From Chrysopilus asiliformis (Eukaryota; Arthropoda; Insecta; Diptera; Rhagionidae): DNA of 64,000 bases. The notes beneath the pieces are model-generated. The model did no database searches. It worked only from the letters and a program-made list of their open reading frames with translations, and was not told where the DNA came from. A program made the position numbers and the translations under genes. Below are positions 5,969 to 53,727 of this stretch, piece after piece (the stretch's first letter is position 1; every line of letters begins with the position of its first letter). Where the stretch lies: assembly GCA_964034945.1 (NCBI GenBank), contig OZ035961.1:66872031-66936030 (forward strand). Direction: 5' to 3'.

Positions 5969-6855
5969 CTTTGCTATTATCCAGTTTGGCTCTAGGCATG
6001 GCAGCAAACATCAAGGACGCATCCCGCGGCAACTCCAATTTCGCGGTCAATCTTTACCAGAAAGCGATTGAAGGTAACGATGGCAAGAACATCATCCTTT
6101 CGCCCTTGTCGATTCAAACAGCTGTCGCATTAGCTTACATGGGGGCTGGTGGACAAACCGCCGAAGAAATGTCCGTTGGCCTTGGATTCACTGGCCTTGA
6201 TAAGCAAACCGTTGCTAGCAAGTTCCACACCTTAATTGAATCCTATCGCTCCAGCCCAATGATTAAATTGGCCAACAAAATTTTCGTGAAAACTGGCTAC
6301 GAAATCGCCGCCGAATTCAATCAATTGGCAACTGAGCAATTCCGCTCTGAGGCTGAAGCGCTTGAATTTTCCGACAATGTCGCAGCTGCTTCAACTATTA
6401 ACCATTGGGTCGAAGAGAAGACCAATGATAAAATCCATGATTTAATCAAGGCCGATTCATTAGACGAGAACACGCGCATGGTGCTCGTTAACGCAATTTA
6501 CTTCAAAGGTGATTGGGTCAACAAGTTCCCCAAAGAAGCCACCCATGAGGCCGATTTTTACACCAGCGAAACTGATAGTGTCAAGGTCGATATGATGAAA
6601 GTACAAAAGCACTTCAAGTACGGCGAATTGAGCGAACTCGACGCCACTGCCATCGAATTACCTTACAAAGACTCCGATCTTTCCATGTTGATCATTTTGC
6701 CAAATAGCCGAACTGGTCTACCTGAGTTAGAGCGAAAACTCAACGACATGAACTTGGCTGATATTGGCTCCAAAATGTTCGACCGGGAAGTTATCCTCAG
6801 CTTGCCTAAGTTCAAGATCGAATTCGAAATCAAACTCAACGATGTCCTCAAGAAG
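5969..6855 (+). CDS. Serpin invariant exon: N-terminal serpin body
   Basis: Encodes most of a serpin, the suicide-substrate inhibitor of serine (or cysteine) proteases. The exon follows acceptor TTTTCTTTTACAG|CT and ends at AAG|GTAAGT in phase 0. It begins with a hydrophobic stretch (LLLSSLALG) resembling the end of a secretion signal, so a first exon supplying the initiator and one codon base is expected upstream; the GTG at 5953 is intronic. Numbered from the internal ATG at 5998: SPLSI at 35-39 (helix B), NAIYFKGDW at 165-173 (strand 3A), IELPY at 219-223 and LPKFKIE at 269-275 (strand 6A). No lesion is visible. Starting at 5998 instead would give a protein without a signal peptide. It resembles insect serpin-1, alaserpin or antichymotrypsin-2-like proteins and Drosophila Spn42Da. 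Confidence 0.95.
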
Positions 6856-7087
6856 GTAAGTGAAAAATTTTCCCAAAAATTTCTATATTCGAATCGAGAG
6901 TCGTGTTTTTTTCTACTTCGGTTATTTTTATCAATGACTTATTCAGATAAAGCGGTTACTAATAAACTTGATCGATAATTATGTTTTGAATTTATATTAA
7001 GAATATATTGTAGTTTACTCGCATGTAGTCGTAAATGTCGCAATACCGACTGAATGCGTGTAATAATTGATTTATCTTGAAATTTAG

Positions 7088-7229
7088 ATGGGCATGACCA
7101 CCATGTTCGAAGATAACGCCGATTTCAGTCACTTGCTTAAATCATCAGAACCATTGAAGATTTCTGAAGTTATCCACAAGGCCTTCATTGAGGTCAATGA
7201 GGAAGGGGCTGAAGCTGCCGCAGCAACAG
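7088..7229 (+). CDS. Serpin invariant exon: strand 5A and reactive-loop hinge
   Basis: Follows acceptor TTTAG and continues residues 287-333 with [15 protein letters not shown] and the block [16 protein letters not shown], then the hinge [17 protein letters not shown] corresponds to P17-P8 of inhibitory serpins. The small alanine-rich residues are what allow loop insertion into sheet A, so all isoforms have an inhibitory-type hinge. The donor CAACAG|GTAATT cuts after the first base of a codon (G), so every downstream cassette supplies two bases completing G-N-N (Gly, Ala, Glu, Val or Asp). This is the branch point for alternative splicing, placed exactly where the variable P7-P' region begins, as in Manduca serpin-1. 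Confidence 0.95.
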
Positions 7230-7616
7230 GTAATTGTTATGCTCTTATTTGTCCCCTCTGTGTTTTGCTTCGACATGTTGGCTTTTACACTTTCCTTTTT
7301 GTTTTTTTTTTTCAATACTCATTCTGGGTTTGCTTTCTTAATAATTACTTTAGATAATTTAATTTAGAAAAACTTTTCTTATATTTTTCATTTTAAATAC
7401 TAACAATTAAACCACTGCATAATAATCTAGTAACATATTGAGAAACCTTCCGTTTTTTCTATAATTTTTTGATTGGAATGAATTCTAACTTACTTTTACT
7501 TTTAAAAATCACTCTGTAAATCCGAAAGTTTTCTCAATATGGTAATAATAAAATCAATTTTTGGTAGTTTTTTTTAGTGAAATGCTGTTAGTTTTAAAGA
7601 CTTTTTTTTTTGATAG
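7230..7616 (+). other. Intron between hinge exon and first cassette
   Basis: Opens with GTAATT and closes with the acceptor TTTTTTTTTTGATAG. Reading through from exon 7088 gives about 40 extra residues before a stop, with no serpin features, so retention would make a truncated protein. Confidence 0.6.
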
Positions 7617-7783
7617 GATGTGCAGTACGAAAGAAACGTAGCCTTATTATATCCAGACCAATTAATTTTCGTGTTGACCGGTCATTCCTTTTTTCAATTG
7701 TCGGGGAATCGGGATTATTGACAATTTTCAGTGGTTCACTGCGTCTACCTGTTCTTTCTGCCAGACTACATGACGAATTTTAA
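7617..7783 (+). CDS. Serpin cassette 1: furin-type reactive site RKKR|S with C-terminal HDEF
   Basis: After acceptor GATAG the two bases GA complete a Gly codon, and the frame reads GCAVRKKR|SLIIS. P4-P1 Arg-Lys-Lys-Arg is the consensus cleaved by furin-like proprotein convertases (P1 at cassette residue 8). The distal serpin strands follow: INFRVDRSFLFSIV and IFSGSLRLP, with R replacing A/N-H in the usual F-x-A-D-H motif. The 55-residue cassette ends in ARLHDEF, close to the ER-retrieval signal HDEL; one base in the last codon (TTT versus TTA) separates them. Drosophila Spn42Da has a furin-inhibiting, HDEL-ending isoform, so this is probably its counterpart, acting in the secretory pathway. 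ATTAAA lies at 7801-7806. Confidence 0.9.
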
Positions 7784-8351
7784 TTTTAAGCATTTTTTTA
7801 ATTAAATAATAAGCATTTTTATGTATTTGCGAAAGAAAATCTCACTGTTGAATTTCATAATTTTTTATGTTTTTTTTTCCAATACTAAAATTTTGAATAT
7901 ACCGCCTATGGGAGAATTCGCTTCAACTGTGACTTATCGAAGGTTCGAACCATTTGTTCATACCTTGAAACTGTAGATGTCACTGATACATATCTATTTT
8001 TATTATTATTTAAATTTGATTCCGTGAGAATTTCAAAAACATTCACCCTGATCACGATTGTTGTTTCGTTTTCGACAAGAGTAGTTTTACGTGTCTAGTT
8101 GGTAGAAAAGCACGTACAACAACACGTAAACCGTTGAAAACGACACGATAATCATGTTTAGGGTGTAGAGTTCTTATTAAGGACTCTAACAAATTACTAA
8201 CATCATCTCTTACTGAAATGAAAGTTCTGTATATTTAAATTCATTATTAACCCTCTAACCGGAATATTTCCGAGAAAAATTCACTAAAATATGACTTTCA
8301 ACTTGCGACAGACCGTAACCAAGACAACGTAGAGGGCTAAATTTTTTCCAG
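7784..8351 (+). other. Intron sequence, nothing recognised
   Basis: AT-rich, with no cassette I can support. It ends at the acceptor-like tract ATTTTTTCCAG immediately before the open frame described next. Confidence 0.5.
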
Positions 8352-8734
8352 CATGTAAAGCGATAACTTACAAAAGTCAGTGTAAGACGTTCCGGCGATT
8401 TCCGGCGATTAAAATTGTTACCCGTTATAAACAAGCGAATTCCCTGAAGCCCGCCTTTTTAAAGCAAGTTGTAGCGGAATCGTTTTTATTCAAATCTTTT
8501 CTATTCTATATTCAAATTATACGCGTGGTTAACATAGAAAAAAAACGTTTTACAAGTTTTCATTTAGTTTCAACAGATGTCTGTAGTCTGAAGGTTAAAT
8601 TTAAAAAAAAAACTTCTGCTAAAACGCAACAAAAAGGAAAAAATGAAAAACATAATGTAATATTTACGACTCAGGCTTTAATCTTGATTGATTTTGCTTC
8701 TTGCAATTTATACATCGTAAATAACCAAAACTAA
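8352..8734 (+). CDS. Open frame after a splice acceptor, possible atypical terminal exon
   Basis: The frame opens at 8333, just after a stop and just before the pyrimidine tract TTTTTTCCAG. It stays open for about 127 codons in the phase the hinge exon requires (CA completing GCA, Ala). Such a run is unlikely by chance in DNA this AT-rich. However, it lacks the F-x-A-D-H-P-F and F-x-G-R motifs of the other cassettes. The nearest resemblance is VVAESFLFKSFLFYI. It is lysine-rich towards the end. It may be a chance frame, a diverged cassette, or a different kind of terminal exon. Confidence 0.25.
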
Positions 8735-8963
8735 AATTACACTTGCTTTTTCCCTTTAACTCTTTCGACTTGACTCTTGGTACATAACTTTCATTTGAAG
8801 CGTCTTATCTTGAAATGGCGCTCAAATATCAGAAAAACAAATCTATCTTGTACTACCTTATTTGTACCATTCGGGTCGAAAGTGTTATATAGCCATTATA
8901 TTGAGTTTTTGCTAAATTTTTGATTTTTGAATTTATATAAAATTTTTATTTGTTTGCATATAG

Positions 8964-9106
8964 CCGTCAATATAATGTTAAAAACTTCTATGCCTCGAAA
9001 TCGAGTGAGATTCAAAGCCAATCATCCATTTATATATGCGATCCGAAAAACTAAACGTAATCGTTTTTTCTTTATTGGAAGAATTTCTAAACTTGAATCA
9101 TTATAA
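8964..9106 (+). CDS. Serpin cassette 2: reactive site K|T
   Basis: Acceptor TTTGCATATAG; CC completes Ala. The loop AVNIMLK|TSMPRNRVRF places Lys at P1 (cassette residue 7, counting from P17 Glu) with Thr at P1', suggesting a trypsin-like target. Conserved distal motifs are FKANHPFIYAI and FFFIGR, with the short tail ISKLESL. At 47 residues the C-terminus is of normal serpin length. AATAAA at 9144-9149 makes it a self-contained terminal exon. Confidence 0.93.
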
Positions 9107-9198
9107 TTATTGAAATTTATATAATTATATAAAAAAAAATTAAAATAAATGAAATGTAATAATACCCGTAACTTTCGTTGTATGTTTCTTCTCTGTAG

Positions 9199-9359
9199 TT
9201 AGAAAATATCTTCCAGCTTCCAGAAATCTGCATTTCTATTATTATGGTAAACCATATAATATTTTCTACCGATTGGAAATGAATCTCATTAGCTGTAAAT
9301 TCTATGTAAACACTTCAAATCAGCTACACTTCTCACGCAGTGAAACCAAGTTGTTTTAA
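9199..9359 (+). CDS. Divergent serpin cassette candidate: A|S
   Basis: A strong acceptor (TTCTTCTCTGTAG) is followed by a 53-residue frame in the correct phase (TT completing Val): VRKYLPA|SRNLHF, then a stretch YYYGKPYNIFYRL aligning with F-x-A-x-K-P-F-x-F-x-L of other cassettes, then CKFYVN where F-x-G-R would be. The Gly-Arg of the last strand is missing, and no AATAAA or ATTAAA follows before the next cassette. It is either a fast-evolving cassette or one starting to decay. Confidence 0.5.
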
Positions 9360-9508
9360 ATAGTGCACTTATCACAGATTTCAAGAAAATATCTCAAGAT
9401 CTTACAAATCACACAAGCAACTACGAGTTACTAATATTATGTTGTTTGTTTGGAAGGGATGGGATTGACATTATACTGTTAGCAAATGTTAAAAACCAAT
9501 TTTTTTAG

Positions 9509-9642
9509 GTGTACTTATCAAGACATATTCTGCATCCCTGGACCCTCCCAAAAGTTTCACGGCAGATCACGCTTTCATTTATTCAATCTGGGATGGAACA
9601 CGCAATATTCATTATTTTATGGGACACGTGGAGTCTATATAA
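9509..9642 (+). CDS. Serpin cassette 3: reactive site Y|S
   Basis: Acceptor CAATTTTTTTAG; GT completes Gly. The loop GVLIKTY|SASLDPPKSF has Tyr at P1 and Ser at P1', suggesting a chymotrypsin-like target. Distal motifs are FTADHAFIYSI and HYFMGH; the final Arg of F-x-G-R is His here. 44 residues, ending VESI. AATAAA at 9713-9718. Confidence 0.92.
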
Positions 9643-10000
9643 AAAAAAACCCTGAAATTAAAAAAAAAATGTTTGTTTTTCCTCGAAATTCTAGAGTGTT
9701 TTTCTAATTTTAAATAAATTTAATATCGCAAATGATCCAAAGTCTGATTTCTAGAAATATGAAAAAAGCATGTTCAGGAGCTGTCCATAAAATGCGTTTT
9801 TGCAATTTTTAAGTTTAAAAATAGTTTTAAAACGTCAACAAATCACAATAATTTCTAAAATGAAAGTTTGCTTTCCATAACATTTATTTTAATTTGCACA
9901 CAATTATTTTTTAACTAACTTCGAAAAAGACGAAGGTTATTCAAATTAACTCTTTCATAATATTGAACAAACTATATTTTATATGCTATCGTTCGTTTAG
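9643..10000 (+). other. Intron sequence, nothing recognised
   Basis: Contains the poly(A) signal of the previous cassette and otherwise AT-rich sequence. Two AG sites near 9690 and 9754 lead to immediate stops. Confidence 0.6.
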
Positions 10001-10143
10001 AAGTTTTGGTGATGTTGGGTCAAAGTGGAGGTCCGAGAAAACTGAAAACCAGAGTTTTTACAGCAGACCATTCATTTTTGTATGTCATCAGAGATTCAAT
10101 CAATGATAGTGTCTACTTTATGGGCATATTATCGACTTTCTAA
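10001..10143 (+). CDS. Serpin cassette 4: long loop, G|Q at the canonical position
   Basis: Acceptor CGTTCGTTTAG; AA completes Glu, so the splice-junction residue is Glu rather than Gly or Ala. The loop EVLVMLGQSGGPRKLKTRVF is about three residues longer than usual before the conserved Phe. The canonical count puts Gly at P1, but the extra length means the scissile bond could be elsewhere (the basic residues after the prolines are candidates). Distal motifs FTADHSFLYVI and VYFMGI are intact. ATTAAA at 10203-10208. Confidence 0.9.
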
Positions 10144-10923
10144 AGAGAATCATCATTTGTTGGTTTTTTTTTGTTTAATTCGTGATAATATTCATATAAT
10201 GTATTAAATATGTAGTATTCATGCCTATTCTGGAATCCGAAGTAGCGTTAAGTTTGTTCGATTTCCCCTCGATTGAAAGCAATTTGTATTCTTGAATCCG
10301 CTACGTTTCACTTCTGTTCGACTGCGTATGATAGAGTAACGTTTTGAAGGGTAGAATTACTCGTTGGAAATTTCTTGCGTTTGGTGTTGGGCGTGATTGA
10401 CGGAAGGCAGGTTGGATTTTTTGAAATTTATGATGAACAAAGGGTTTTATTTCAAATAGCAGTGCAAAGAAAATCTACATTTTTTGATCACAAGAATAAA
10501 GAAAAATCAGACATCGCGAAAGAGCACACAACATTTTTTCGGTACTTAGGTCCATATATAAAAGACACCACACTAGCAAATAAATCACATAAAAACAATC
10601 AGCTGGGACTTTGACAATCCGTAGCCGAGTGATTGAAAAGTGAGTTTCAGATCGATTTCCAGACTTTGGTTTTACGTTTTAACTTTGGATTCCAGAATAG
10701 CCATGATTGTTGTTTAATAAAAATACACTGTATTAAAATTAATCTTCAGGTTAGCTTACGTTCTTGGAGATATTGATTTCAATCAGATTTTTTTGTCTTT
10801 CAGATTATTTTTTCTTTCACATTATTAATGTTTAGTTTTTCTCGTAACTCCATGACTTGTACGAATAAATCAATTTCAGTGTTATATTGAAAAATCTTAG
10901 CTAAACGGTTCTTAAATTTCTAG
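10144..10923 (+). other. Intron sequence, nothing recognised
   Basis: Several AG sites (about 10697, 10803 and 10878) are followed by early stops in the required phase. An 80-codon frame at 10375-10614 has no serpin motif and no acceptor in phase. Confidence 0.5.
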
Positions 10924-11060
10924 CTGTTAAAGTGGTGGCATATTGCTTGCGAATTGAACCAGAGCCAGACATCTTTAAAGCAGATCATCCTTATATTTTT
11001 ACAATAATGGATAGAAAACTTACGACAGCATATTTTATGGGAAAATTTGTTAAAATCTAA
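10924..11060 (+). CDS. Serpin cassette 5: reactive site Y|C
   Basis: Acceptor TTAAATTTCTAG; CT completes Ala. The loop AVKVVAY|CLRIEPEPDIF has Tyr at P1 and Cys at P1'. Distal motifs FKADHPYIFTI and AYFMGK are well conserved. 45 residues. The nearest AATAAA is at 11277-11282, over 200 bases on. The P1' cysteine is shared by several of the next cassettes and is unusual for a secreted inhibitor. Confidence 0.93.
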
Positions 11061-11414
11061 TCACTTTTTGAGAAAACAATCGAAATTTTATTAATCAATC
11101 TTGAACATTTCTTTTTAAAATTTGTCAATTGATTATAAAAAATTGTTCATGGTCATAATGTTTTAGGAAATATGGAAAACTTTCTTTTTAACCTGTTAAA
11201 CATTATTGTTGTATACATATTGGATTTTGAAAAAAAATACTTGCTAAAAGTTACAACATTTTTATTACATTCCTTCAATAAATTCCTTCTGGGCAGTAAA
11301 ATTTGTTCACTAATTTCTCTACAATCAAAACTGGCCAGCTCAAATATTACGTGTTTATTGACTTTATTTTCCTCCATTTGTTCTCACTCGATAATAAATA
11401 TTTTTTTCCTCTAG
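11061..11414 (+). other. Intron, long open frames without serpin motifs
   Basis: Frames at 11172-11414 and 11303-11414 run open up to the next acceptor but lack F-x-A-D-H-P-F. A stretch KYYVF...LFSLDNKYFF (about 11350-11410) faintly resembles a cassette but has no acceptor in phase, so I do not call it. Confidence 0.45.
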
Positions 11415-11539
11415 GCATAAGAATGAGGCTTCAATGTATTTCTTTTAGCCATAATTTTCTTGCTAATCATCCATTCGTTTATTTTATTTGGAATCGAGAG
11501 CAACGCTGTGCATACTTTACAGGAAGATACAGCGTTTGA
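11415..11539 (+). CDS. Serpin cassette 6: reactive site Q|C
   Basis: Acceptor TTTTTCCTCTAG; GC completes Gly. The short loop GIRMRLQ|CISFSHNF has Gln at P1 and Cys at P1', with Arg at P3. Distal motifs are FLANHPFVYFIWN and AYFTGRYSV. 41 residues. It shares the run WNREQ-x-C-AYFTGR with cassette 7, showing a fairly recent tandem exon duplication. AATAAA at 11583-11588. Confidence 0.93.
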
Positions 11540-11929
11540 AGTTCTTTTCAAGCTGAAAATTTTTTTATTTGTAATGAAATCGAATAAAGCAAAAAAACTA
11601 AAACATATTTTAGCACTTTCTGTGTTAAATATCCACCGCTAAGGGGAAGAGTTCGTACTTTGGATCGAAATTTAACTTTTCCATCGATATCAAAAATCTA
11701 GGAATTATTAAGTTTTTTTTTAATGTAGTGAAGGCCTCATAACTTGTGTATACAAAAAAAAACCTTTGTGCTGATAGTCCTCACTGTTTTTACCTTCCGG
11801 GCTTGTCCCATATACCAACACTAAAAGGTCACAGTATTTTCTTACTTTTGCTTTCAATATTTATCTGAGGTGGCGCCTTTGAAGTGGGTAAGTTTTGTTT
11901 TTCTGGAGAAAGATTATATTTGTAGATCT
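11540..11929 (+). other. Intron sequence, nothing recognised
   Basis: 3' flank of cassette 6, then AT-rich DNA up to the mariner relic. Confidence 0.5.
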
Positions 11930-12440
11930 TGGATCACAAGAATTTGAAAAATCTCTCAGTTAAAAAAGTTTGCTCCGTTAATATTGTAATATATACAATA
12001 CACTACGCCCACGATTCTTCCATTTTTGAATACCTTCTGAATAATAAGATTTCAGCGATGACTTCTTCGCTCGACCCAAATCTCTTGCCACGGAGCCATT
12101 TCTTCAAGTTTGGAAATAGATAATAGGCCAAATCTGGTGAATTAGGAACAAATTCGTAGCGCAATTCATGAAATTTTGTCATTGCGAATGCGGACTTGTT
12201 CGCAAGTTATCCTGATGGAAAAGCACTTTTCCATTAACGAAATGCGGCCGCTTTGACTTCAAATCGGCGTCGAATCGACCCAAAAGTTCTGCATAATATA
12301 CTCTGAGGATCATTTTGCCCTTTCCAAGGTAATCGATGTGAATAACACCCTACTTATCAAAAAAAAACTGTGGATCTGACATTATTGGCCGACAGACACA
12401 ACTTGGTCTTCCTACGACTACAAAAAGTTGCAAAAAGTCT
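11930..12440 (-). mobile_element. Mariner transposase relic
   Basis: On the minus strand, translation gives GVIHIDYLGKGKMI, YYAELLGRFDADLKSKRPHF and VLFHQDN, matching the central catalytic region of mariner transposases, including the second Asp of the D,D34D triad. Several stops and frameshifts break the frame (for example a stop just before GVIHIDYL). The frames at 11929-12123 on the plus strand are shadows of it. Terminal repeats were not identified. It is dead and sits in the intron between cassettes 6 and 7. Confidence 0.8.
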
Positions 12441-12677
12441 TTATAACAGTTGAACTGTAAGTCGAATACAAGACAAAAAATAATGTCTGACTTTAATTTT
12501 TATTCTCCTAATTAAACCAGCACCCCCCTTACATGTTACATCTTTTAGAATTGATACTTTTGTATAGATTCTCGATTATTTAAAAAATATAAATATTCAT
12601 TATGTGTTAGTTCTGCATTTTTTTTTAAATGTTCTTTCACTCTTTAACATGATTTTATTTTATTTTTTACTCTATAG

Positions 12678-12802
12678 GCGTAATAATGATGGCTCGTTGT
12701 GTTCGCATTTGCCCCAATTTTGTTGCCGATCATCCATTTATTTATTTCATTTGGAATCGAGAGCAATGCTGTGCATACTTCACAGGAAGATTTAACAAAT
12801 GA
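12678..12802 (+). CDS. Serpin cassette 7: reactive site R|C
   Basis: Acceptor TTTACTCTATAG; GC completes Gly. The loop GVIMMAR|CVRICPNF has Arg at P1 (trypsin-like target) and Cys at P1', with a second Cys four residues on. Distal motifs FVADHPFIYFIWN and AYFTGRFNK are intact. 41 residues. Closest relative is cassette 6 (same loop length, same WNREQ segment). AATAAA at 12846-12851. Confidence 0.94.
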
Positions 12803-13894: not shown

Positions 13895-14025
13895 ATTGGT
13901 CAACGCTTCTACGATGTGAACCAATTATATTTGATTTCAAGACCGATCATCAATTTATTTATTGGATTTGGAACAATAAAACTCTTTCATTTTTTGTAAA
14001 TTTATATTATCTGCCCCATAAATGA
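13895..14025 (+). CDS. Serpin cassette 8: R|C, diverged distal end
   Basis: Acceptor TTTTTTACATAG; AT completes Asp, unlike the Gly or Ala of most cassettes. The loop DWSTLLR|CEPIIFDF keeps the length and R|C site of its neighbour. The distal half has FKTDHQFIYWIWN with Thr for Ala, and the last strand reads LSFFVNLYYLPHK, lacking the Gly-Arg. No AATAAA follows nearby. The frame is open (43 residues), so it may be a working but relaxed cassette or one on the way to becoming a pseudo-exon. Confidence 0.75.
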
Positions 14026-15077: not shown

Positions 15078-15202
15078 GAATACAAATCATGCTGTGTAGT
15101 TTACCCCTGTTATTCACTTTCAACGCTGATCATCAATTCATGTATTCAATATGGAATCGAAAAACTGCGCACCATGTCTTCATGGGAAAATACACAAGAT
15201 AA
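15078..15202 (+). CDS. Serpin cassette 9: reactive site C|S
   Basis: Acceptor TTTTGTATTTAG; GA completes Gly. The loop GIQIMLC|SLPLLFTF has Cys at the canonical P1 and Ser at P1'; if the true P1 is one residue off it would be Leu or Ser. Distal motifs FNADHQFMYSIWN and HVFMGKYTR are conserved. 41 residues; it belongs to the same short-loop IWN subfamily as cassettes 6-8. No canonical poly(A) signal was found close by. Confidence 0.9.
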
Positions 15203-17040: not shown

Positions 17041-17067
17041 GGTTTGAGATTCCAAAGGGGGCAGACC

Positions 17068-17215
17068 GCTAAGAAGTCCGAAACAGTCTAATTGCATTCT
17101 AACTCTTATTCGCTTTTATTAATTCTCTCAGCGATCTGAAAACTTTCCAATAAAAACTGGAATTAGAACGGGAATTGGCATGCAATTAGACCGTTTCACA
17201 CACGTCCTTAGTAAA
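17068..17215. mobile_element. Small MITE related to 38265-38460
   Basis: Imperfect inverted ends: GAAACAGTCTAATTGCA at the left and TGCAATTAGACCGTTTC at the right, flanking a T-rich core. The same terminal words occur in the element at 38265-38460. Boundaries are approximate. Confidence 0.5.
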
Positions 17216-17218
17216 CAT

Positions 17219-17745: not shown

Positions 17746-20509
17746 CTGATCTGGCAAAAAGAAGAATTATTGTTCTTAAGAAAACCCATATATGTAACTA
17801 TCTAGAAAAAAAGTTAAATCTTAAAAAATCGGGTGAATGCAGCCAAACTACTCACAGATTCAGATTCAGCGATGCCAACTCACCCAATAATGAATTTATT
17901 TTTCACGCCAACAACAAAAATAAAAATTTTCAGTTTATATGGAATTTTTCGGCTTTTCTCAAAAATTAGAGCCAATCTGGTCAAACCACTCGCATATTCG
18001 AAATCAGCTACGTAAAATTATCCCAAAAAATCTTTTGCAAGACATAAAAGTAATTTTTTGATGGATAGTTTTGATGGTGTGTTTATTTATCACGAAGTAA
18101 TTCGATTCAGTTTTCATAAAAATGAAAATAAATTCCATAAAAATAAAAATAATAAAACATAACCAAAATTGATAAAATTTAACAAACAGAAAATACGAAA
18201 AAAAACCAAAATAGCGGTTCTAAGTTTACAAAAAGAAAATAAAATTTAAAAGAAAAAAACTCGTACAAATGTTTCATGCATTTAAATAAAAAAAAAACAC
18301 TGCCCAACAAAAACGACATTTTATGTGTGGCTAAAAATATAGAATTTTAGGATATTTTGACGTTATTGATTCTGGATCGGATTTTACTTTGACCAGAATG
18401 ACTAGAGACAGAAAATATTTTAGACACCAAAAAAGTTGCATAAAATATTTTCTTTTTCATATCTCCAGAAGTAGATTGAATCTGGCCAAAACAAAGTCCG
18501 CTTCAGAATCAAAATATGAATACAAATACTACCCCAATATTTTACGTGATATTTTATGCAGGGTTATTCTTGATGAACTTTCGTGGAAAACTTCACGGAA
18601 AAATGATACAAAATAAAATAAGGCAAAAATAAATAATCGAATAATTTTTTCTCTGTTTTCGTTATTGTAACAGAATTAAATTTTTATAACGTTATAACAT
18701 AATTTTGAACAAAAACCCAAAAATTCTTTCTTAATTTCCTTATGATAACGTTTTCCATCCCTGGTTCTAATTCTTGGTGAAAATCTGCAAATTTAAAAAA
18801 CATTGGATATTTTTAGGGATGAATGCGAATCATATATGAAAGGATTTAGTGAAAGTTCAAAAATTTAGCACTTAAAAACTGAGCACGACAGAAGTATTTT
18901 TTCACCCCATTTAATAAATGATTACAACTTTTAATATTATAGAAATTCTGCTGCGATTTGCATTTCACATAAAAGTTTTTATCAGTTTCTGAATCCTTTG
19001 TAACCTGCCTGTCATGTTTTTCAGCGCTGGCTGAACTCCTCTATCCAGCTATGTGAATCCAGACAAGAAGAACTCGTTCAGCTTAGCTTTCTTAAGTACA
19101 AGAGATTTGTAGGGCACCTCAAGGATTGATCGTTAGAATTTCTCATCAGAAATAAATCAATTCGAGTCTTAAGGGTCACATCGAAAATTGGTTTAGTATC
19201 CGAAGTAAAAGGTTTTTCTATGAACGGATCTCTGCCCCAACTTTCCTCTACATTTGAATACTTCTCGATCATTTTCTGGTCAACTACTTTGTCTGATAGC
19301 AGTGTCATGGGAAATTCCTCTACTTGTTCCGTTGATTGAGAGATTCCCCCACTTGTTCCGACTGTTAATCCAAAATTTCAATTTGCTTTACTCGTTCATG
19401 TAACGATGGTTCTTCATTGACCCAAAATGGCTGTCAATCGTTAGATATTGAGATTTTTGAATTTTTCTTCTAACCTACATGTATAATTTCCTATTTAAAT
19501 ACTCATAATATCACTCTCAAATATTGCAACACAATAAAACAAATTTGAAATTACAACACACGTCGAATTGCAACCATAGGCAACAAAACATCTGGTGAAA
19601 TCGAGGGTTGTGTTTGGTATACTATACTCTTATGATAAAACCTTTCGACTATCTAGTGCTCATTCAAAAGGTAGATGGCATGACTTTTGAGTGACAGGAC
19701 TTACTATTGCTCAAAATACTTTATGTCGTGTATAGAAATGCACCTCTGGTATAGGTTGCTTATTGCAAAGCTATCTTTTGTTTAAAAAAAATTTAAAAAA
19801 ATAAAGCGAAATAAATATTTTTTTATGTTTTTCTCTCGTTCTTATTTCTGATACACAGCGCCCCAAAAAAATGTTTTTCTTCTTTTTACTACAATTTTTT
19901 AAATAAAAGCTTTTTTTAAAAAAATTTCTATTATATTTTATCCTTTTTAGTCATTTTGCATTTGATTTGTAGGGCCAAAAATCCAAAAAAAATATCGTTT
20001 GTCTTTCGCCACACTTATCTATACTTTTCAGTCCTCGGATATCCTTGTCTTTGAGATATCCTTACGGACTTTCTGACTCCAGAATTGGATAATTGTTGAT
20101 AAACTATGCACATGTTCAGCAAAATAAAATGTCCCTGGGGGAAAAATTTGGCCTTCGCCAACAAGTAATCAACCAAAGAGAGACTATACTGTTGAAAAGC
20201 CTCTGTGAAATGTGTAGAACAACAACTGTTTGAAAGTCACCAGAAGCAACTAATTTTGTAATTTTTATAATAAATATTTTATAATTATCATATTTTTAAA
20301 AACAATTTTTATGCTAATAGCATCTCAGTAGTTTCAAAAAATAAAAATATGATCAAAATAAACAATAAAACAAGACTATTTTCATGAAATTCCATACAAA
20401 ACGTATGAAGGTACACGGATACCTTGTCACCCTTTTAAGGTTTTGTTTTTAAAAACAGGTGTATACCTCGACTAAAGCCATTAAAATAAGTAAATTTATT
20501 AAATTTTAG
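17746..20509 (+). other. Long intron stretch without cassette
   Basis: About 2.8 kb of AT-rich DNA. I checked AG sites after pyrimidine tracts (for example 19024, TTTTTCAG) and found only short frames without serpin motifs. The segment 19750-20010 resembles part of 44080-44300 (a CTGATACA-AGCGCCC/AAAAAA motif), so it is probably repeat-derived. Confidence 0.45.
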
Positions 20510-20592: not shown

Positions 20593-20593
20593 G

Positions 20594-21483: not shown

Positions 21484-21644
21484 GAGTCGGAATCTCTTTG
21501 TTATCAATCGGCATAAATGAAAAGGAATTTAATGCAAACAAGCCATTTTATTTTACACTCAAATATATGAGTAACAATCAGATTTTTTCGGGCCGTTTAA
21601 AAGTCCCTTGTCACAACGCGAATCACACAAATCACGAAGTTTAA
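21484..21644 (+). CDS. Serpin cassette 10: reactive site L|S, long C-terminal tail
   Basis: Acceptor TTTATATATTTTAG; GA completes Gly. The loop GVGISLL|SIGINEKEF has Leu at P1 and Ser at P1' (chymotrypsin- or elastase-like target). Distal motifs are FNANKPFYFTL and IFSGRLK. After the usual serpin end it continues with VPCHNANHTNHEV, a His/Asn-rich tail with one Cys, for 53 residues in all. ATTAAA lies at 21782-21787. The ANKPF variant is shared with cassette 16. Confidence 0.92.
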
Positions 21645-22638: not shown

Positions 22639-22641
22639 TTA

Positions 22642-23263: not shown

Positions 23264-23391
23264 GAGTTATAGTAGCAGTTCCATTTTCTGCAGTTATCAG
23301 CCAGCCTAAAAGATTTAATGCTGTTCATCCCTATGTTTTCGTTATAAAATCGACCTATGGAGTCGTATTTTCAGGCAGAAAACTTAACTAA
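23264..23391 (+). CDS. Serpin cassette 11: P/F|S site, SGRKLN subfamily
   Basis: Acceptor TTTATTTCAG; GA completes Gly. The loop is GVIVAVPF|SAVISQPKRF; counting puts Pro (residue 7) or, more plausibly, Phe (residue 8, before Ser) at P1. Distal motifs FNAVHPYVFVI (Val for Asp) and VVFSGRKLN. 42 residues. Cassette 13 has a nearly identical loop frame (AVIVAVPAS) and all three SGRKLN cassettes (11, 12, 13) clearly arose by duplication. AATAAA only at about 23699. Confidence 0.93.
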
Positions 23392-25433: not shown

Positions 25434-25558
25434 GGAGTGTGATGGTAATAACTCCCTCAATCCCACACCCAGTAGAGCGGTTCAATGCTGATCATCCCTA
25501 CCTTTTTGCTATCAAATCAGAACGTGGTGTGGCATTTTCAGGAAGAAAGCTTAATTGA
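25434..25558 (+). CDS. Serpin cassette 12: T|P at the canonical site
   Basis: Acceptor ACAATTTTTTCAG; GG completes Gly. The loop GSVMVIT|PSIPHPVERF has Thr at P1 by count; Pro at P1' would block cleavage by most proteases, so the scissile bond may be one residue off (Ile-Thr or Pro-Ser). Distal motifs FNADHPYLFAI and VAFSGRKLN. 41 residues. AATAAA at 25629-25634. Confidence 0.93.
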
Positions 25559-28751: not shown

Positions 28752-28882
28752 CAGTTATAGTGGCAGTTCCCGCTTCTGCAGTTATTCGCCCGCCACCGAA
28801 AATATTCGATGCTGATCATCCGTATCTCTTTGCAATAAAATCAACTCAAGGAGTCGCATTTTCAGGAAGAAAACTTAACTAA
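28752..28882 (+). CDS. Serpin cassette 13: P/A|S site, SGRKLN subfamily
   Basis: Acceptor TTTATTTTAG; CA completes Ala. The loop AVIVAVPA|SAVIRPPPKIF has Pro (residue 7) or Ala (residue 8) at P1; Ala before Ser suggests an elastase-like target. Distal motifs FDADHPYLFAI and VAFSGRKLN. 43 residues. The loop keeps the VIVAVP-x-SAVI frame of cassette 11, with changes concentrated at the predicted scissile bond. AATAAA at 28958-28963. Confidence 0.94.
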
Positions 28883-31238: not shown

Positions 31239-31348
31239 GAATTGCCGTCTTACCGATTTCTACTACTATCCGTACTATTCCACCGAAATTCTCTATAGCT
31301 GATCATTCATTTTTACTTGGAATAAAGGACAACCATGGCCGCGTATAG
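31239..31348 (+). pseudogene. Serpin cassette 14: I|S loop with premature stop
   Basis: Acceptor TTTGAATCTACAG; GA completes Gly. The loop GIAVLPI|STTIRTIPPKF is well formed, and ADHSFLLGIKDNHGR follows. The codon after GRV is TAG (31346-31348); downstream the frame would read GTL where others have F-x-G-R. One residue is also inserted between F and ADH (FSIADH). The missing piece is the last core strand (s5B), so the isoform would probably misfold. It has its own AATAAA (31485-31490). A recently disabled member of the AIKD subfamily, unless the stop is read through. Confidence 0.8.
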
Positions 31349-33091: not shown

Positions 33092-33219
33092 GAGCAATAT
33101 TTGTGGCGGAGAGTGCTTTAATATCTATACCGAAATATTTTATTGCCGATCATCCGTTCTACTTTTCGTTGTTCAGTTCGGAAGAGACGCTTTTCTTTGG
33201 CAGAGTTTCCAAATTCTAA
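33092..33219 (+). CDS. Serpin cassette 15: acidic reactive site E|S
   Basis: Acceptor TATATTGTTTTAG; GA completes Gly. The loop GAIFVAE|SALISIPKYF places Glu at P1 with Ser at P1'. An acidic P1 is rare in serpins and would suit proteases that cut after Glu or Asp; caspase/granzyme-B-type inhibitors such as CrmA use an acidic P1. Distal motifs FIADHPFYFSL and LFFGRVSKF. 42 residues, intact. AATAAA at 33310-33315. Confidence 0.94.
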
Positions 33220-33427: not shown

Positions 33428-33579
33428 GAGGAATAATTATGACAAGATCATTTGTCTCAAAAATTGAATATACTTTTGAAGCAAATAAGCCATTTGTGTT
33501 TTTCCTACATAATCAAAATAATTGTTTTTTCACTGGAACATTACGCACCAAACCAATTGTCTCCGAATGCCTATGTTAA
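33428..33579 (+). CDS. Serpin cassette 16: reactive site R|S, Cys-containing tail
   Basis: Acceptor TTACTATTTTCAG only about 210 bases after the previous cassette; GA completes Gly. The loop GGIIMTR|SFVSKIEYTF has the classic Arg|Ser pair of trypsin/thrombin-like targets. Distal motifs FEANKPFVFFL and CFFTGTL (Thr for Arg). An extra tail TKPIVSECLC with two cysteines follows; 50 residues. ANKPF links it to cassette 10. No canonical poly(A) signal was seen close by. Confidence 0.92.
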
Positions 33580-37020: not shown

Positions 37021-37148
37021 GAGTTGTGACGACTACTTATTCCATGTCCTTGAGTTCACCAAAGGAATTTACAGCTGATCATTCGTATCTATTTGCTATA
37101 AAGGACAATGCCAGCCGCGCATTTTTCACTGGAAGATTTATCCATTAA
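37021..37148 (+). CDS. Serpin cassette 17: reactive site Y|S
   Basis: Acceptor TTTTTTTTCTAATAG; GA completes Gly. The loop GVVTTTY|SMSLSSPKEF has Tyr|Ser (chymotrypsin-like target). Distal motifs FTADHSYLFAIKD and AFFTGRFIH. 42 residues. First intact member of the AIKD...FFTGR subfamily that fills the rest of the array. AATAAA at 37206-37211. Confidence 0.95.
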
Positions 37149-38711: not shown

Positions 38712-38836
38712 GAGTGATACCAGTAGTGATGTCCATGCCACCGCCTCTAAAGGAGTTCAATGCCAATCATGGATACATTTTCGCAATCAAAGATAGCACT
38801 AGCTGCGCATTTTTCACTGGAAGATATTCGCAGTGA
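38712..38836 (+). CDS. Serpin cassette 18: reactive site M|S
   Basis: Acceptor TTTTTCTTTTCAAAG; GA completes Gly. The loop GVIPVVM|SMPPPLKEF has Met|Ser, the same pair as human alpha-1-antitrypsin, suggesting an elastase- or chymotrypsin-like target and possible oxidation sensitivity. Distal motifs FNANHGYIFAIKD and AFFTGRYSQ. 41 residues. AATAAA at 38894-38899. Confidence 0.95.
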
Positions 38837-41028: not shown

Positions 41029-41153
41029 GAATTCATCTTGTACCACTATCTGTTCAACTTGACCCTAAGCCTTTCGTTGCAAACCATGGATTCCTATTCG
41101 CTATTAAGGATAATGATAGAAAGGCATTCTTTACTGGGAGATATGTCGCATAA
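41029..41153 (+). CDS. Serpin cassette 19: reactive site L|S
   Basis: Acceptor TTATTTGCTGCAG; GA completes Gly. The loop GIHLVPL|SVQLDPKPF has Leu|Ser, suggesting an elastase- or chymotrypsin-like target. Distal motifs FVANHGFLFAIKD and AFFTGRYVA; the ANHG variant is shared with cassette 18. 41 residues. AATAAA at 41217-41222. Confidence 0.95.
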
Positions 41154-45092: not shown

Positions 45093-45232
45093 GTGTTATT
45101 GGAGGTTTTAGGTCAGCCCATGTACTCCGAGATCCGCCCAAGGTCTTTAATGCTGACCATCCATTCCTTTATGGAATTAAGGATCAATCTGGTAGAGCGT
45201 TCTTCAGTGGAAGATTGATAAATTTCCATTAA
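45093..45232 (+). CDS. Serpin cassette 20: reactive site R|S
   Basis: Acceptor TCCTATCTACAG; GT completes Gly. The loop GVIGGFR|SAHVLRDPPKVF has Arg|Ser, the signature of inhibitors of trypsin-like clip-domain proteases. Distal motifs FNADHPFLYGIKD and AFFSGRLINFH. 46 residues. AATAAA at 45290-45295. The similar KDQS segment points to common origin with cassette 21. Confidence 0.95.
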
Positions 45233-47107: not shown

Positions 47108-47543
47108 CAGACTAACGATTGCTATTACGATTGAGGCTTCTCGACCAATGAGATCAAAGCTTTCAACGATAGAACTATAGGGCTTAAGGCTATTTGGCCA
47201 CTAATTTTGGCAATGAATGGAACTTATTGTAGTGACCCAGCTTTGGCTGAAGATGCGAAGTTTTATATCCCGTGTTGTTTGGGACTGCTGCCGATTTCTC
47301 GGTTGTTCCCTATTTTCTGCAAAAATATGTGGGCACCACATCTTAAATGAAGATAAACACAAACATTTTTATTATATAATTATACTTGCAATATTGCTAA
47401 ACTGCATGATTTGGTCGCATTTTAAAAAAATGGTTAAAACGGGTAAAAACTTTATTATGTGGGTCGATTTGCATGAAAATGAGAAAAAGAAGTCACAAGT
47501 ATAAAAAAAATATTTATTATTCTCAATTTTTCTATCAATTTAG
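47108..47543 (+). other. Intron, nothing recognised
   Basis: Runs to the acceptor TCTATCAATTTAG of cassette 21. A 95-codon frame at 47217-47504 has no recognisable domain. Confidence 0.5.
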
Positions 47544-47674
47544 CAGTTTTAGTCACACTGGGCAGATCAGGACGTGTACAATCAAAACATTTTACAGCAG
47601 ACCATCCATATCTTTTCGCAATTAAGGATCAATCTAGCCGAGCTTTCTTTACCGGAAGAGTACTGCATTTTTAA
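47544..47674 (+). CDS. Serpin cassette 21: reactive site R|S
   Basis: CA completes Ala. The loop AVLVTLGR|SGRVQSKHF has Arg|Ser at residue 8 (the count is one longer than in most cassettes, as in cassette 1). The GR|S context resembles antithrombin-type loops, and trypsin-like proteases are the likely targets. Distal motifs FTADHPYLFAIKD and AFFTGRVLHF. 43 residues. AATAAA at 47721-47726. Confidence 0.95.
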
Positions 47675-48104
47675 TTAAATGTTTTTGAATACAAAAAAAA
47701 AATTGTAAAAATCTTTCACTAATAAAATAGTCTATCATTTTATCAAAATTTGTTGATATAAAAAAGAATATAAAATTTTATATGTAGTATGTTTAGTCTT
47801 TGAATAAATCACTTCTATGACGTATTCATGACGTGCGGATTTCGCACTGGATAAAAATACTCAATAAACATAATAAACATTTTTGCTCGTTTAGCCCAAC
47901 CTTTTTTGTTGTTCCATTTTTAATTAAATAATTGTATATTTTTATGAAGTGTTGTTTTTTCTTGATTTTTTTTCTTGTATCTGATAACTGAATGGAATTA
48001 AAAAAATATTGTTTTTTCGCCGTTAAATAAAAAAGGGCTTTCAAAAGTAGTTTCCGACAAAACAAGAGGGCTGAAAACCAAAAATTTCGAGAGCAGCTAG
48101 CGGA

Positions 48105-48986
48105 CACAGAACTATATACATAGAACGCTCATGGCCATATAAAGCCTAGCATTAAAAGTAAGTCAAAAATTATTGCTTTCTCTGTCCGGCTATATTTCGT
48201 TTCAATGACATTTCATGTGACTTTAATTCACTGAACTGAAATTGAAATGTATAGCTACCTAAGGCGCTAAGATTTGAATTTTTTCCGGCGATAAATCCAA
48301 AATTTCCATCACATTAGAAATTTTTGTTGTTTTAATTCTAAATATTAATTGAGAGTTAGGATTTCTGTACCCCCTTTTTGACCGACTTCCACTCAAGTGA
48401 TTTTGTTACCAAGATGTGGACAAACACAAAACTTAATCAAATTAATATACTGAATATTTTTTCTTCTCAGTTCATTCTTGTGCCCAATTTCTCCTAAAAA
48501 TGTTTACTCAAGAATTTCTTTTAATCTTAGCAACCCAGTCATATCAAAATCAAATGAACTAATGTAAAAAAATGACAAAAACGAATCACTTACTGAAATA
48601 TTGCCACCACATCTTCTTCAGTATTTCCACAACTTTCGACAATACATTTTGATAAGCCTTTCTTAGGCCGTGGCATGATGACGCGACAGAATTTAATTCA
48701 CACAAATAAATTTTATAAATCACTTTTAATATTGACTGCAAACTATTTTGAATAAAACGAAATCGTATCATGTTCTGTCATATGATGACAGTTCAATTAA
48801 CTTAGGTTATGAAAACCGTCAAATTATATGACAGTTCGAGTAACTTATTTACAGTGGAAAAGTGACAACTACTCAGATTTTATATATATTTGTCTCCCTT
48901 TGGCCCAATTTTTTTACCCCACTGAACTGCTAAAAAATGACTTATAAGAGATAGAAGATTGAGCGTTCTATGTATATAGTTCTGTG
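48105..48986 (-). mobile_element. Non-autonomous DNA transposon with 8-bp duplication, copy 1
   Basis: Ends CACAGAACTATATACAT and its complement, flanked by a perfect duplication CTAGCGGA (48097-48104 and 48987-48994). On the minus strand, just after the end region, a short frame begins MPRPKKGLSKCIVESC and soon stops; the same start is kept in copy 2 (62206-63202). The paired cysteines at the very N-terminus suggest the start of a THAP-like DNA-binding domain as in P-type transposases, but this is an inference. Confidence 0.85.
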
Positions 48987-48994
48987 CTAGCGGA

Positions 48995-49337
48995 GAAAAG
49001 GCACAATTTCAAAAAAAATTAAAAAAACATTTAGCTGGGCCCTTGGCGAGATGCCACACTGGCATCAGCTATTGATAATAATCTGATTCCGAAATTCCGA
49101 AATGTGGAAATTTTTGTGTAAAAAACCAAATTGGTAATTTCACGTCAAAGCATTTTGCGTTTACGGTCATGTCCACTTTCTTAATTTTTTTAATTGAATG
49201 TTGCTAAACATCTAAAAAAAAAGTTGCCCGTAATTTTCGGTTGTCGGTGGGTGAGTCAAATTCGGAGAAAAGCCAATAACATGTAAACTTTAAATATTTA
49301 CATGTTATTGTAATGTTATTGTCTTTTCCAAAAAATA
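48995..49337 (+). other. Intron, nothing recognised
   Basis: Short AT-rich stretch between two transposons. Confidence 0.5.
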
Positions 49338-49339
49338 TA

Positions 49340-50730
49340 CACTGCCGGTCAAAAAAACTTGACCGATGATAAAAAAAACCAATTTTTCGACTTTTCACTC
49401 ATGTTTCATGACTATTTGGGCCCGCTTTTCGAGTGACACTTGTTTTTTTCTTGCCATAATTAATATATTACACTTACGAAAGCCGATTTAAAAAATATTG
49501 AATCAACCTTTTTTTGTAATTTTATTATATTCTTAAGAGTGACAAAAAACCATGCATTTTTCGACGATTTTTATGCCCCCTGGCTAACGTTTGAACCAGT
49601 TGGGGTTTCACTTTCGTATTACCCCCATTGGAAAGGTAATTTGCTCTAGTTTCATGGACATAATCTCTTTTTTGGCGGGGAACTGCAGCGGGATGGTCAG
49701 CTGCCATCTTAGGCGCACTGGTTTTTTGATGGAAAAATCATTTTTTGATGGAAAAATCATTTTTTGATGGAAAAATCATTGCGCCTAAGATGGCAGCTGA
49801 CCATCCCCCTGCAGTTCCCCGCCAAAAAAGAGATTATATCCATGAAACTAGAGCAAATTACCTTTCCAATGGGGATAATACGAAAGTGAAACCCCAACTG
49901 GTTGAAAAGTAAGCCCGGGGGCATAAAAATCGTCGAAAAATGCATGAAAAAAGCAGTGCGCCTAAGATGGCAGCTGACCATCCCCCTGCAGTTCCCCGCC
50001 AAAAAAGAGATTATATCCATGAAACTAGAGCAAATTACCTTTCCAATGGGGGTAATACGAAAATGAAACCCCAACTGGTTCAAACGTTATGCTACATTTA
50101 CACGAATGACAAATTTGTCATTTTTTTCTTGTCATTATGTTAATTCCCGTGTAAATGGCATAATTTTTGTAATTTTTTCTGTCAGAAAATGTCAATCTCT
50201 CATAAAAGAATGAACTTGTCCATTCTTTTATGCCAGATTGTCATTCGTGCAAACGCAATATTAGTTATGACAACTTTAGTATTCAACTTTTGTCATAACT
50301 AATATTGCGTTTGCACGAATGACAATCTGGCATAAAAGAATGGACAAGTTCATTCTTTTATGAGAGATTGACTTTTTCTGACAGAAAAAAATACAAAAAT
50401 TATGCCATTTACACGGGAATTAACATAATGACAAGAAAAAAATGACAAATTTGTCATTCGTGTAAATGTAGCATTAGCCAGGGGGCATAAAAATCGTCGA
50501 AAAATGCATGAAAAAAGCAGTGCGCCTAAGATGGCAGCTGACCATCCCCCTGCAGTTCCCCGCCAAAAAAAAGATTATATCCATGAAACTAGAGCAAATT
50601 ACCTTTCCAATGGGGGTAATACGAAAGTGAAACCCCAACTGGTTCAAACGTTAGCCAGGGGGCATAAAAATCGTCGAAAATCGAAAAATTGGTTTTTTCA
50701 TCATCGGTCAAGTTTTTTTGACCGGCAGTG
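49340..50730. mobile_element. Composite Tc1-like element, 1391 bp, with internal repeats
   Basis: Ends are CACTGCCGGTCAAAAAAACT and its complement, flanked by TA (49338-49339, 50731-50732), as in Tc1/mariner elements. Inside is a unit with GCGCCTAAGATGGCAGCTGA, CATCCCCCTGCAGTTCCCCG and CCAACTGGTTCAAACGTTA. It occurs four times: once inverted (about 49548-49722) and three times direct (about 49780, 49950, 50518). The third direct unit is split by the Harbinger-like MITE at 50090. The repeated open frames are the same non-coding unit read several times. Confidence 0.8.
50090..50472. mobile_element. Harbinger-like foldback MITE, copy 2
   Basis: Same family as 22642-23025, with a TTA duplication (50087-50089 and 50473-50475). 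The neighbouring unit at about 50643-50660 preserves the uninterrupted sequence CAAACGTTAGCCAGGGGG. That is a natural empty site proving the insertion point and the 3-bp duplication. Confidence 0.92.
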
Positions 50731-50732
50731 TA

Positions 50733-51112
50733 TTTAAATGTTTTTTTTTTGTTTTTCAGCCTTATAGAAGGGGTGTTTTTTATATTTTGAACCTATTAAT
50801 TTTTTTCTTTGAATCTGGTTAGCTCATGTCAAAATTCAAAAATTTCATGTCAAAATTCGTAAAACTTTCCGTAAAACTTTGGAAATTGGAACACTTGAGT
50901 CACGGAAAATTTGTTTTTTTTTTAAATTTATTTATGTCTTGTTTTTTGTGAATGTCCATAAACTGTATTTGTTTTGTCCGTGATACACATATCCACAAAC
51001 AAACGTTTAATTATCAAGTATGTACACCACGCTTCGCCACAGAATAATGTGTTTGTTGTAAATTTAAAATCTATTCATTTAACTTTTTGTATCGAATTTA
51101 TTGGATCGACAG
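50733..51112 (+). other. Intron, nothing recognised
   Basis: Leads to the acceptor TTATTGGATCGACAG of cassette 22. The pyrimidine tract of that acceptor is weak. Confidence 0.5.
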
Positions 51113-51252
51113 GTGTATATCATCCATGGGGACATTTGCCCTCTCTTGGACCACCACCTCCAATCAACTTCGTAGCTGATCATCCATATTTATATGCCAT
51201 TCTGGATAGTAACAGCAATACACCATTCCTAGGGAGATTGCTTTATCTGTAA
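51113..51252 (+). CDS. Serpin cassette 22: proline-rich long loop
   Basis: GT completes Gly. The loop GVYHPWGHLPSLGPPPPINF is the longest distance (20 residues) to the conserved Phe and carries six prolines. No obvious scissile pair is visible (Gly|His by count), so this isoform may be non-inhibitory or may present its site in an unusual way. Distal motifs FVADHPYLYAI and PFLGRLLYL are intact. 46 residues. AATAAA at 51307-51312. Confidence 0.92.
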
Positions 51253-52091
51253 AACTGATCAAAATATGCAGAATTTAACACATTAAAAAATTTGTAAAAA
51301 AAATTAAATAAACATTTTGAAATTGCACAGTATTATTGGTTATAAAGCAATTTTATTGCAATAAAGGTGAGTTTACATAAGCACCGTTCCAGCAAAAATG
51401 CAAATTTTGCTGAAAAAATGGAGAGATATGGACAGATCAAATGAGGAAAAAACATAAGAGGGGGTGAGACTAATATGTTAAAATTATGTCAGCAACATTT
51501 TATTGGCGAAATATACTGGAAAATTTATAGCAGCAAATTCATTTAGGCGCGAAACGAGTCGAAGAGCTTCAAGAGGGTGAAGTACTAATTTGTCACTCAG
51601 ATATAATAGTTGCAGTCGGTCAAAGGCAATGTTTATGGAAATCTAATCATAAGAACTACAAAAACAAAAACTTGAAAAACAATGGTTGAATTGTTTAAAA
51701 ATAATTCATAGTCATTTTAAAACACAGATTTTGTAAAACATTAGTTTAAACAGACAAAAACCCATAGCAAACTGACAGTTTCAACTCATGTTTAACAAAA
51801 CCTATGTTTAAAAATGACTACGAATACGCGCCAATATTTCACGTCTATCTATTCACTTCACACTTCGTTTTGACATGTGATTTTGACAGAATAACCCTAA
51901 AAAAGGCAGATACGATTCTCTGTCTACTTTTGTTAATTTTCAATAGACTATCTCTATCCAGTTTTCCAGCAAAATCTGCATTTTTACTGAAAAGCTGGCC
52001 ATGTCAAGTTATCTTAAAGCTGCGTTTATGGGAAAATTAGAAAAGAGTTGATAGTCGTTCCAAGCTAAAAAGGGTCACGTTTATGTGCAGA

Positions 52092-52094
<3 letters not shown>
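51253..52094 (+). other. Intron, nothing recognised
   Basis: 3' flank of cassette 22 and AT-rich sequence up to the microsatellite. Confidence 0.5.

Positions 52095-52095
<1 letters not shown>

Positions 52096-52183
<88 letters not shown>
52096..52183. repeat. (AT)n microsatellite
   Basis: About 88 bases of alternating A and T, directly joined to the repeat that follows. Confidence 0.95.
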
Positions 52184-52186
<3 letters not shown>

Positions 52187-52680
52187 GATGTTTGTTTGTC
52201 TGTCTGTTTGAGATTACAAAACTCAAAAACTACTGGCCCGATTTTTACGCGGTTTTTTGCAAAATGATCTGCGTTGTCAGGAGCAGGTTTTTAGCTATGT
52301 TAGATTTTCAAAATTTGAAACGGAAGGTCCTGTGGGGATAACGCAAATATTCTTTTATTCGTTCTTCCCCAGAAAAATCGGCATAAGGGGGTTTCCGGGG
52401 TCGCTGATCGCAAATCCGGTGTTAGATTTTTAAAATTCTAAACGGAGGGTCCTGTAAGGATAACGCAGATGTCCTTTTTCCAATTTTTCTTGCAAAAACA
52501 GGCTTCGGGAGGTTTTCAGGGTATCTTATCCAGAATCTGGTGTTGGAATTTCAAAATTCGAAACGGAAGGTCCTATAAGGATAACGTTTTTTCCCAAAAG
52601 TTTTTTGTGGTTTTTTGGATTCTAAAATTTATACAAAAAACTTTAAGCTGGCAACGAAGGGTCTGCTAGTTTGGTATAAA
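52184..52680 (+). repeat. Interspersed repeat, copy of 821-1172
   Basis: Starts with TTTGTCTGTCTGTTTGAG and ATTACAAAACTCAAAAACTA, then three units each containing AAACGGA(A)GGTCCTGT and GGATAACG. The inverted copy is at 821-1172. Both copies abut an (AT)n tract at the same side. Confidence 0.75.
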
Positions 52681-53551
52681 GTACCAATTTGATCTGATAT
52701 AGTTCTCATATTTATGTAAATTTTGATTTGACATACTTAAGAAAAATTTCGTCAATAATTTTATGTATCAAATTTTAATTCGTCTAAATAAATCTCCGAT
52801 ACCACCACTAACTTGTTTTGAGGTTATAAAATGGTTTTGGTCTGATCCAAAGTCGCTTATGCGCAAGGTCGATTAAGGTCCAAACCAAAATTGAGTCCAT
52901 TGTGGACCAAAAAATACCTGTTTGGTTTTCATTTAGGTGCTGCAAAATTGGTCATACCGTACCGGTTCTGTGCCGCACATACACGCGACCAATCACTCTG
53001 ATATTATTGTAAGAGAGCAGTATTGCAAGTCCAAGTGCAAACTACTTATAAGTTTTCCCTAAACTTTTTGTTACTTCGGAGGACCCGAGAGTACTTATAA
53101 GTGAGATTAGAATTACAACGCAACTATTTAGTACTTCTAGATTTAGATACGCATCAACAAAAGCGCAGCGACTTGAACAGGTTTGTTGTAGAAATTTTTC
53201 ATATCATAAAATATACAGGATAAAGCAGAAAAGACAGACAACGTTTCGGTAAGGAATCTTTTTTACTACCAACTGAATATGAACATAAATAATATACTTT
53301 TGTTCGTACAAAAATTTTCTTTCATAATAGGCGATATGCATTTATAAACTATTAATTTTCAAATTCAGTCTTATCTAACTGGACGATCGATAAAGAGTTA
53401 CCAAATAGTATGGGAACTCTAATGCAAATGGTAAGAAATATTCAATAACTATTATCTAACTAACATAGGTCATGCAATTACAGTTCTATAAATCAATGAT
53501 TCTTTATTATATCAGGGGTTTCAAAAGAAAAAAATTTATTCTCCATTTCAG
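52681..53551 (+). other. Intron, nothing recognised
   Basis: Ends in the acceptor TTCTCCATTTCAG of the last cassette. Confidence 0.5.
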
Positions 53552-53727
53552 AGGGAATTACTGAAAATCGAATTTTCAGACGAAGGCCACATCTCTTAGC
53601 TGATCATTCTTTCTTGTACCAGATTAAAAATTGCGATCATGTAGTGTTCAGCGGCAGATTAGCAAATCCTCCACCAAGGGAAAAGAGTAGTGTGCAGCAA
53701 CATCATAATGTGGAAACAATATTCTAA
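53552..53727 (+). CDS. Serpin cassette 23 (last): R|I site, basic loop, long tail
   Basis: AG completes Glu. The short loop EGITENR|IFRRRPHL has Arg|Ile at the canonical position and an RRR run just after; the conserved Phe is Leu here. Distal motifs LADHSFLYQI and VVFSGRLANP. The frame then continues with a 20-plus residue hydrophilic tail (PPPREKSSVQQHHNVETIF), the longest tail in the array; 58 residues. AATAAA at 53846-53851 ends the gene as far as can be seen. No further cassette was found downstream. Confidence 0.9.

Follow-up and report, generated by a model that had tools for sequence, protein, structure and literature searches.

The stretch of Chrysopilus asiliformis DNA analysed here (contig OZ035961.1, positions 66,872,031 to 66,936,030, 64,000 nucleotides (nt), referred to as the window) is part of a 429 Mb genome and contains one serpin scaffold followed by an array of reactive-loop exons that very probably serve as its alternative ends. 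The scaffold consists of two constant exons on the plus strand. The constant scaffold exon (5969-6855), preceded by an acceptor, matches positions 2-282 of the Pfam Serpin profile (E 8e-87), and the constant hinge exon (7088-7229), followed by a donor GT at 7230, matches positions 283-328 (E 7e-16). Exon 5969-6855 opens inside a likely signal peptide (LLLSSLALG), and the coding sequence of the two exons together spans the serpin from the last part of this putative signal peptide to the hinge; an internal Met at 5998 within the same exon could start a cytosolic serpin form. The final base of the hinge exon, G (7229), is the first base of the split codon after the hinge.

Downstream of the scaffold, 23 reactive-loop cassettes were found between 7617 and 53727, all on the plus strand. 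Each is a short frame behind an acceptor, supplies the two bases that finish the split codon and codes for the loop and final strands of a serpin. In 21 of them the open frame, the phase, the A-D-H-type turn and the F-x-G strand are all present. The first, cassette 1 (7617-7783), has a furin-type loop, RKKR/S, and the C-terminus HDEF, which is of the type that retains proteins in the endoplasmic reticulum (ER). Cassettes 2 (8964-9106), 3 (9509-9642), 4 (10001-10143), 5 (10924-11060), 9 (15078-15202), 10 (21484-21644), 12 (25434-25558), 13 (28752-28882), 15 (33092-33219), 16 (33428-33579), 17 (37021-37148), 18 (38712-38836), 19 (41029-41153), 20 (45093-45232) and 21 (47544-47674) were identified by the cassette profile, the acceptor and the external serpin model described below. 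Cassettes 6 (11415-11539) and 7 (12678-12802) are duplicates whose likeness extends into the 3' flank, cassette 11 (23264-23391) has AVH in place of ADH, cassette 22 (51113-51252) has a long proline-rich loop, and cassette 23 (53552-53727), the last of the array, has a long C-terminal tail. The remaining two are degenerate: cassette 8 (13895-14025) has lost the F-x-G strand, and its strongest nearby acceptor is out of phase; cassette 14 (31239-31348) has a stop ahead of the F-x-G strand. An earlier note on this DNA had described the array and counted 22 cassettes plus one candidate and one with a stop; the array stands, with the count corrected to 21 intact and two degenerate.

The cassettes were tested independently using an external serpin model built on 72 of 120 listed proteins. 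The hinge exon was joined to every open frame of 28 residues or more that follows an acceptor scoring over a set floor, with three phases and both strands covered. Each of the 23 cassettes added 17.5-38.6 bits. Among the 1027 acceptor/frame combinations, the best one outside the scaffold exons and cassettes (including alternative readings of these) reached 12.0 bits (19951), followed by 11.1 bits for a chance match on the minus strand. The 19951 frame (19951-20053) is in phase and is possibly a very weak relic of a decayed cassette.

The strongest nearby acceptor was in the required phase for 22 of the 23 cassettes, with 13895 as the exception; the binomial p of 5e-10 is overstated because the cassettes share ancestry. 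For cassette 11 (23264), the acceptor score favoured another in-phase AG, at 23294. The motif x-x-[AVCSGIT]-[DN]-H-[PASTG]-[FYLI] was present in 17 of 23 cassettes; it also had two non-cassette matches on the plus strand and three on the minus strand.

When all 23 cassettes were used as seeds, the resulting profile scored 38-70 bits for each of them on the plus strand and found nothing comparable on the minus strand; six null copies of the window (one reversed, five first-order Markov) peaked at 12.9 bits. This profile is circular for its own seeds, and the 13895 seed is wrong in its first residues. An earlier profile made from 15 seeds gave the other eight cassettes 14.1 to 44.6 bits, the lowest being cassette 1 (7617). 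The 23-seed profile was also run over 40 kb of upstream and 60 kb of downstream sequence, where no further cassette was found (best score, 8.2 bits). The cassette consensus was taken from an alignment of 22 of the 23 cassettes (13895 omitted; 7617 shortened) and was used for display only. Six DNA self-matches involved cassettes; four reached no more than about 11 bases beyond the exon, and those between 11415 and 12678 and between 37021 and 38712 continued into the 3' flank. An assembly artefact is unlikely because the median pairwise protein identity of the cassettes is 33%. The interpretation first proposed, a single scaffold served by many alternative terminal exons for the reactive loop, is supported by the exon anatomy, the phase, the fit to outside serpins and the lack of another scaffold within the array.

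Judged by its sequence, the gene is of the Spn42Da/serpin-1 type and probably dipteran. Of the solved structures, that of Drosophila Spn42Da, 4P0F, is the closest (scaffold E 1.1e-81), and the hinge exon plus cassette 1 align without gaps through the scissile bond to the Spn42Da segment EEGTEAAAATGMAVRRKR, with RKKR opposite RRKR. Among the first twenty protein matches, the named ones are dipteran and 51-55% identical, and many are labelled as 42Dd-like or antichymotrypsin-2-like isoforms. A 31-row scaffold tree did not resolve the placement of the window serpin.

Loop residues were then compared across the cassettes. In 21 of 23 cassettes, residue 8 is Ser or Cys or residue 9 is Ser; this rule was picked after the table had been seen, and the two amino acids together account for 9.3% of the residues in all cassettes. 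The cassettes at 51113 and 53552 break the rule. Taking this Ser/Cys as P1', the predicted scissile bond follows residue 7 in 14 cassettes and residue 8 in another seven, cassette 1 among them, and the predicted P1 residues are R, Y, F, L, M, A, Q, E, C, I, T and P. With such a range, proteases of the trypsin, furin, chymotrypsin and elastase types are all plausible targets. The hinge had previously been placed as ending at P8, which is right if P1 is cassette residue 7; the alignment of cassette 1 with Spn42Da puts P1 at residue 8 and the hinge end at P9. Among the 80 external tails, which are those of the 120 listed proteins with a recognisable hinge and tail, 13 have DE[LF] or EE[LF] at the C-terminus, each together with a basic ..KR loop like that of cassette 1; the 13 are not independent, as at least four are from Drosophila and several are close relatives. 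The HDEF C-terminus would act as an ER-retention signal, and cassette 1 would most likely give a furin inhibitor held in the ER. In this it resembles the furin inhibitor of Drosophila, which carries an ER-retention signal (PMC4006314; PMC2556349).

A stop codon lies inside each cassette. AATAAA was present within 150 nt past the stop in 15 of 23 cassettes, compared with 8.9 +/- 2.1 in AT-matched intron windows (a count this high came up in 11 of 2000 draws, and in 58 of 2000 for the weakest of the four variants tried). The best donors around or past the stops had a mean score of -0.05 vs 0.24 for the background, and a score of at least 6 was reached in one of 23 cassettes vs 1.3% of background windows. 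From the AATAAA enrichment and the lack of stronger donors, we infer that the cassettes are alternative terminal exons, each with a 3' end of its own. It is very likely that the locus is one Spn42Da/serpin-1 type gene, with its hinge exon spliced to one of 21 intact terminal exons. In this mechanism, the hinge exon (donor 7230) would be joined to one intact cassette at a time, and each cassette would provide the bait loop, the last strands, a stop codon and, mostly, a nearby polyadenylation signal; the chosen exon would decide which protease is trapped through the classical serpin suicide mechanism, and polyadenylation may help in exon choice. The choice would be one of N, not combinatorial as the earlier note had it.

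Alternatively, the cassettes could be mutually exclusive internal exons that share a downstream 3' exon, as in the serpin-1 genes of the lepidopterans Manduca sexta and Cydia pomonella, which resemble the present gene in having an alternative reactive-loop exon near the hinge. Manduca serpin-1 has the same exon 9/10 layout as Cydia. In C. pomonella CpSPN1, only the ninth of ten exons differs (PMC10671500), whereas here each cassette seems terminal. A strong donor (8.5) located 115 nt past the stop of cassette 22 (51113) would suit a shared 3' exon; the donors past the stops, on average no better than background, and the enriched polyadenylation signals argue against one, and this arrangement is considered quite unlikely. 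A further possibility is that most cassettes are decaying duplicates with few in use, for which the two degenerate cassettes, the possible relic at 19951 and the weak hinge donor could be cited. Against decay, 21 cassettes retain the frame, the phase and both strand motifs, and non-synonymous change per site (dN) in the strands was 0.09-0.30 in eight pairs covering 10 cassettes, under the synonymous value (dS) wherever dS was measurable. Widespread decay is likewise considered quite unlikely. In four of these eight pairs, picked to have no cassette in common and pooled, non-synonymous change was 0.32 in the loop vs 0.15 in the strands (Fisher p 2e-4), and synonymous change was 0.585 vs 0.57 (p 1.0). 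This contrast in the tested pairs points to selection that favours novel or less constrained bait loops while the fold stays fixed.

It is very improbable that the cassettes are parts of separate serpin genes or are trans-spliced to another scaffold. The genome does contain other serpin genes, including one on this chromosome (C2:102.69 Mb); the family search, however, found no second scaffold in or near the array, and the external-model scan found no scaffold-like frame after any acceptor between cassettes. The other serpins share about 27-40% identity with the window serpin over the stretches that match, the same-chromosome one lies 36 Mb away, and use of the array by another scaffold was rejected on these identities.

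Several observations weigh against the proposed one-gene, terminal-exon structure. The closest proteins, from metagenome or assembled sets, are 61-62% identical, and two of 23 cassettes are degenerate, one lacking the F-x-G strand and one stopping early. The hinge donor, GTAATT, scores 4.5 vs 8.1 for the other scaffold intron, a weakness that may leave room for regulation. About nine of the 15 AATAAA signals are possibly chance occurrences. NF-kB-like sites, reported to be enriched in genes of this type, showed no enrichment using a rough pattern (two found vs a Markov mean of 2.9). For the putative signal-peptide exon there are 13 weak candidates in the 20 kb upstream, among them one that sits 411 bases upstream of the window. 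The selection pairs span 10 of the 23 cassettes, and several of their dS values are saturated.

Genes of this type have been described before in fruit flies, moths and wasps, and the present one is a long example. The wasp Pteromalus puparum has PpSerpin-1, with 21 C-terminal forms all confirmed by reverse transcription polymerase chain reaction (RT-PCR) (Yan et al. 2023, PMC10513286), and the same paper places the junction at +1 in 161 of the 192 insect serpin genes whose C-termini are alternatively spliced. Like PpSerpin-1, the window gene has one scaffold, alternative C-terminal exons past the hinge and an extra G at the +1 junction (PMC10513286); unlike the hymenopteran gene with its RT-PCR forms, it is known from sequence alone, as 21 intact and two degenerate cassettes. 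It resembles Drosophila melanogaster Spn42Da (Spn4), the closest solved scaffold, in its furin-type loop, with the conserved strand F and G present in the intact cassettes; Spn42Da differs in having four reactive-loop exons and eight isoforms (PMC4006314). Manduca serpin-1 has 14 isoforms and that of Cydia six (PMC10671500). A set larger than that of Manduca serpin-1, as put forward in the earlier note, is not new, as Pteromalus has 21 forms. The antichymotrypsin-2-like protein of the cat flea Ctenocephalides felis (P0059) has an RMKR/S loop and an RDEF end and is the best external match to cassette 1 (46%); its scaffold is 49% identical to the window scaffold. Protein clusters at 90% with 77 member sequences from Diabrotica virgifera, 43 from Chironomus riparius and 38 from Lutzomyia longipalpis hint that other species have as many loop forms or more, in counts that mix databases and N-terminal variants. 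Among the papers listed for sand-fly serpin isoforms, none was on topic, judged by title and abstract start.

The locus shows cleanly, at the genomic level, how a protease inhibitor can diversify exon by exon, and its long array of apparent terminal exons makes it a good system for how a cell selects one of about 20 ends. A broader proposal, which is tentative and somewhat unlikely, is that it forms a near-complete inhibitor repertoire, in which 21 functional, separately polyadenylated loop exons, with P1 residues suited to trypsin, furin, chymotrypsin, elastase and unusual Q/E specificities, would have had their loop diversity selected and would rank among the largest animal arrays.

Elsewhere in the genome, a scaffold-like serpin frame (profile 3-283) lies at G000:C2:102689871-102690707, is 27% identical to the window scaffold and is the same-chromosome serpin mentioned above; with the cassette profile, the 40 kb examined around it contained no loop exon (best score, 11.8 bits, on the upstream side). 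Another serpin, at G000:C3:40502027-40518190 (loci L009 and L010), has two last exons encoding hinge, loop and C-terminus that are 16 kb apart and 85% identical over 341 bases. It has one visible upstream exon set, with unread stretches that include 40512001-40516414, and may be another gene in which loop exons alternate. Within the window, Pfam searches of ten open reading frames gave one reverse transcriptase and one DUF321 match, both under their cut-offs; the former (RVT_1, 20 bits, under the cut-off of 29.6) marks 1431-2294 as a likely fragment of a retroelement reverse transcriptase. Two frames of about 30 residues at 50209 (plus strand) and 22906 (minus strand), in opposite orientation and with one difference, are probably copies of a dispersed repeat in introns.

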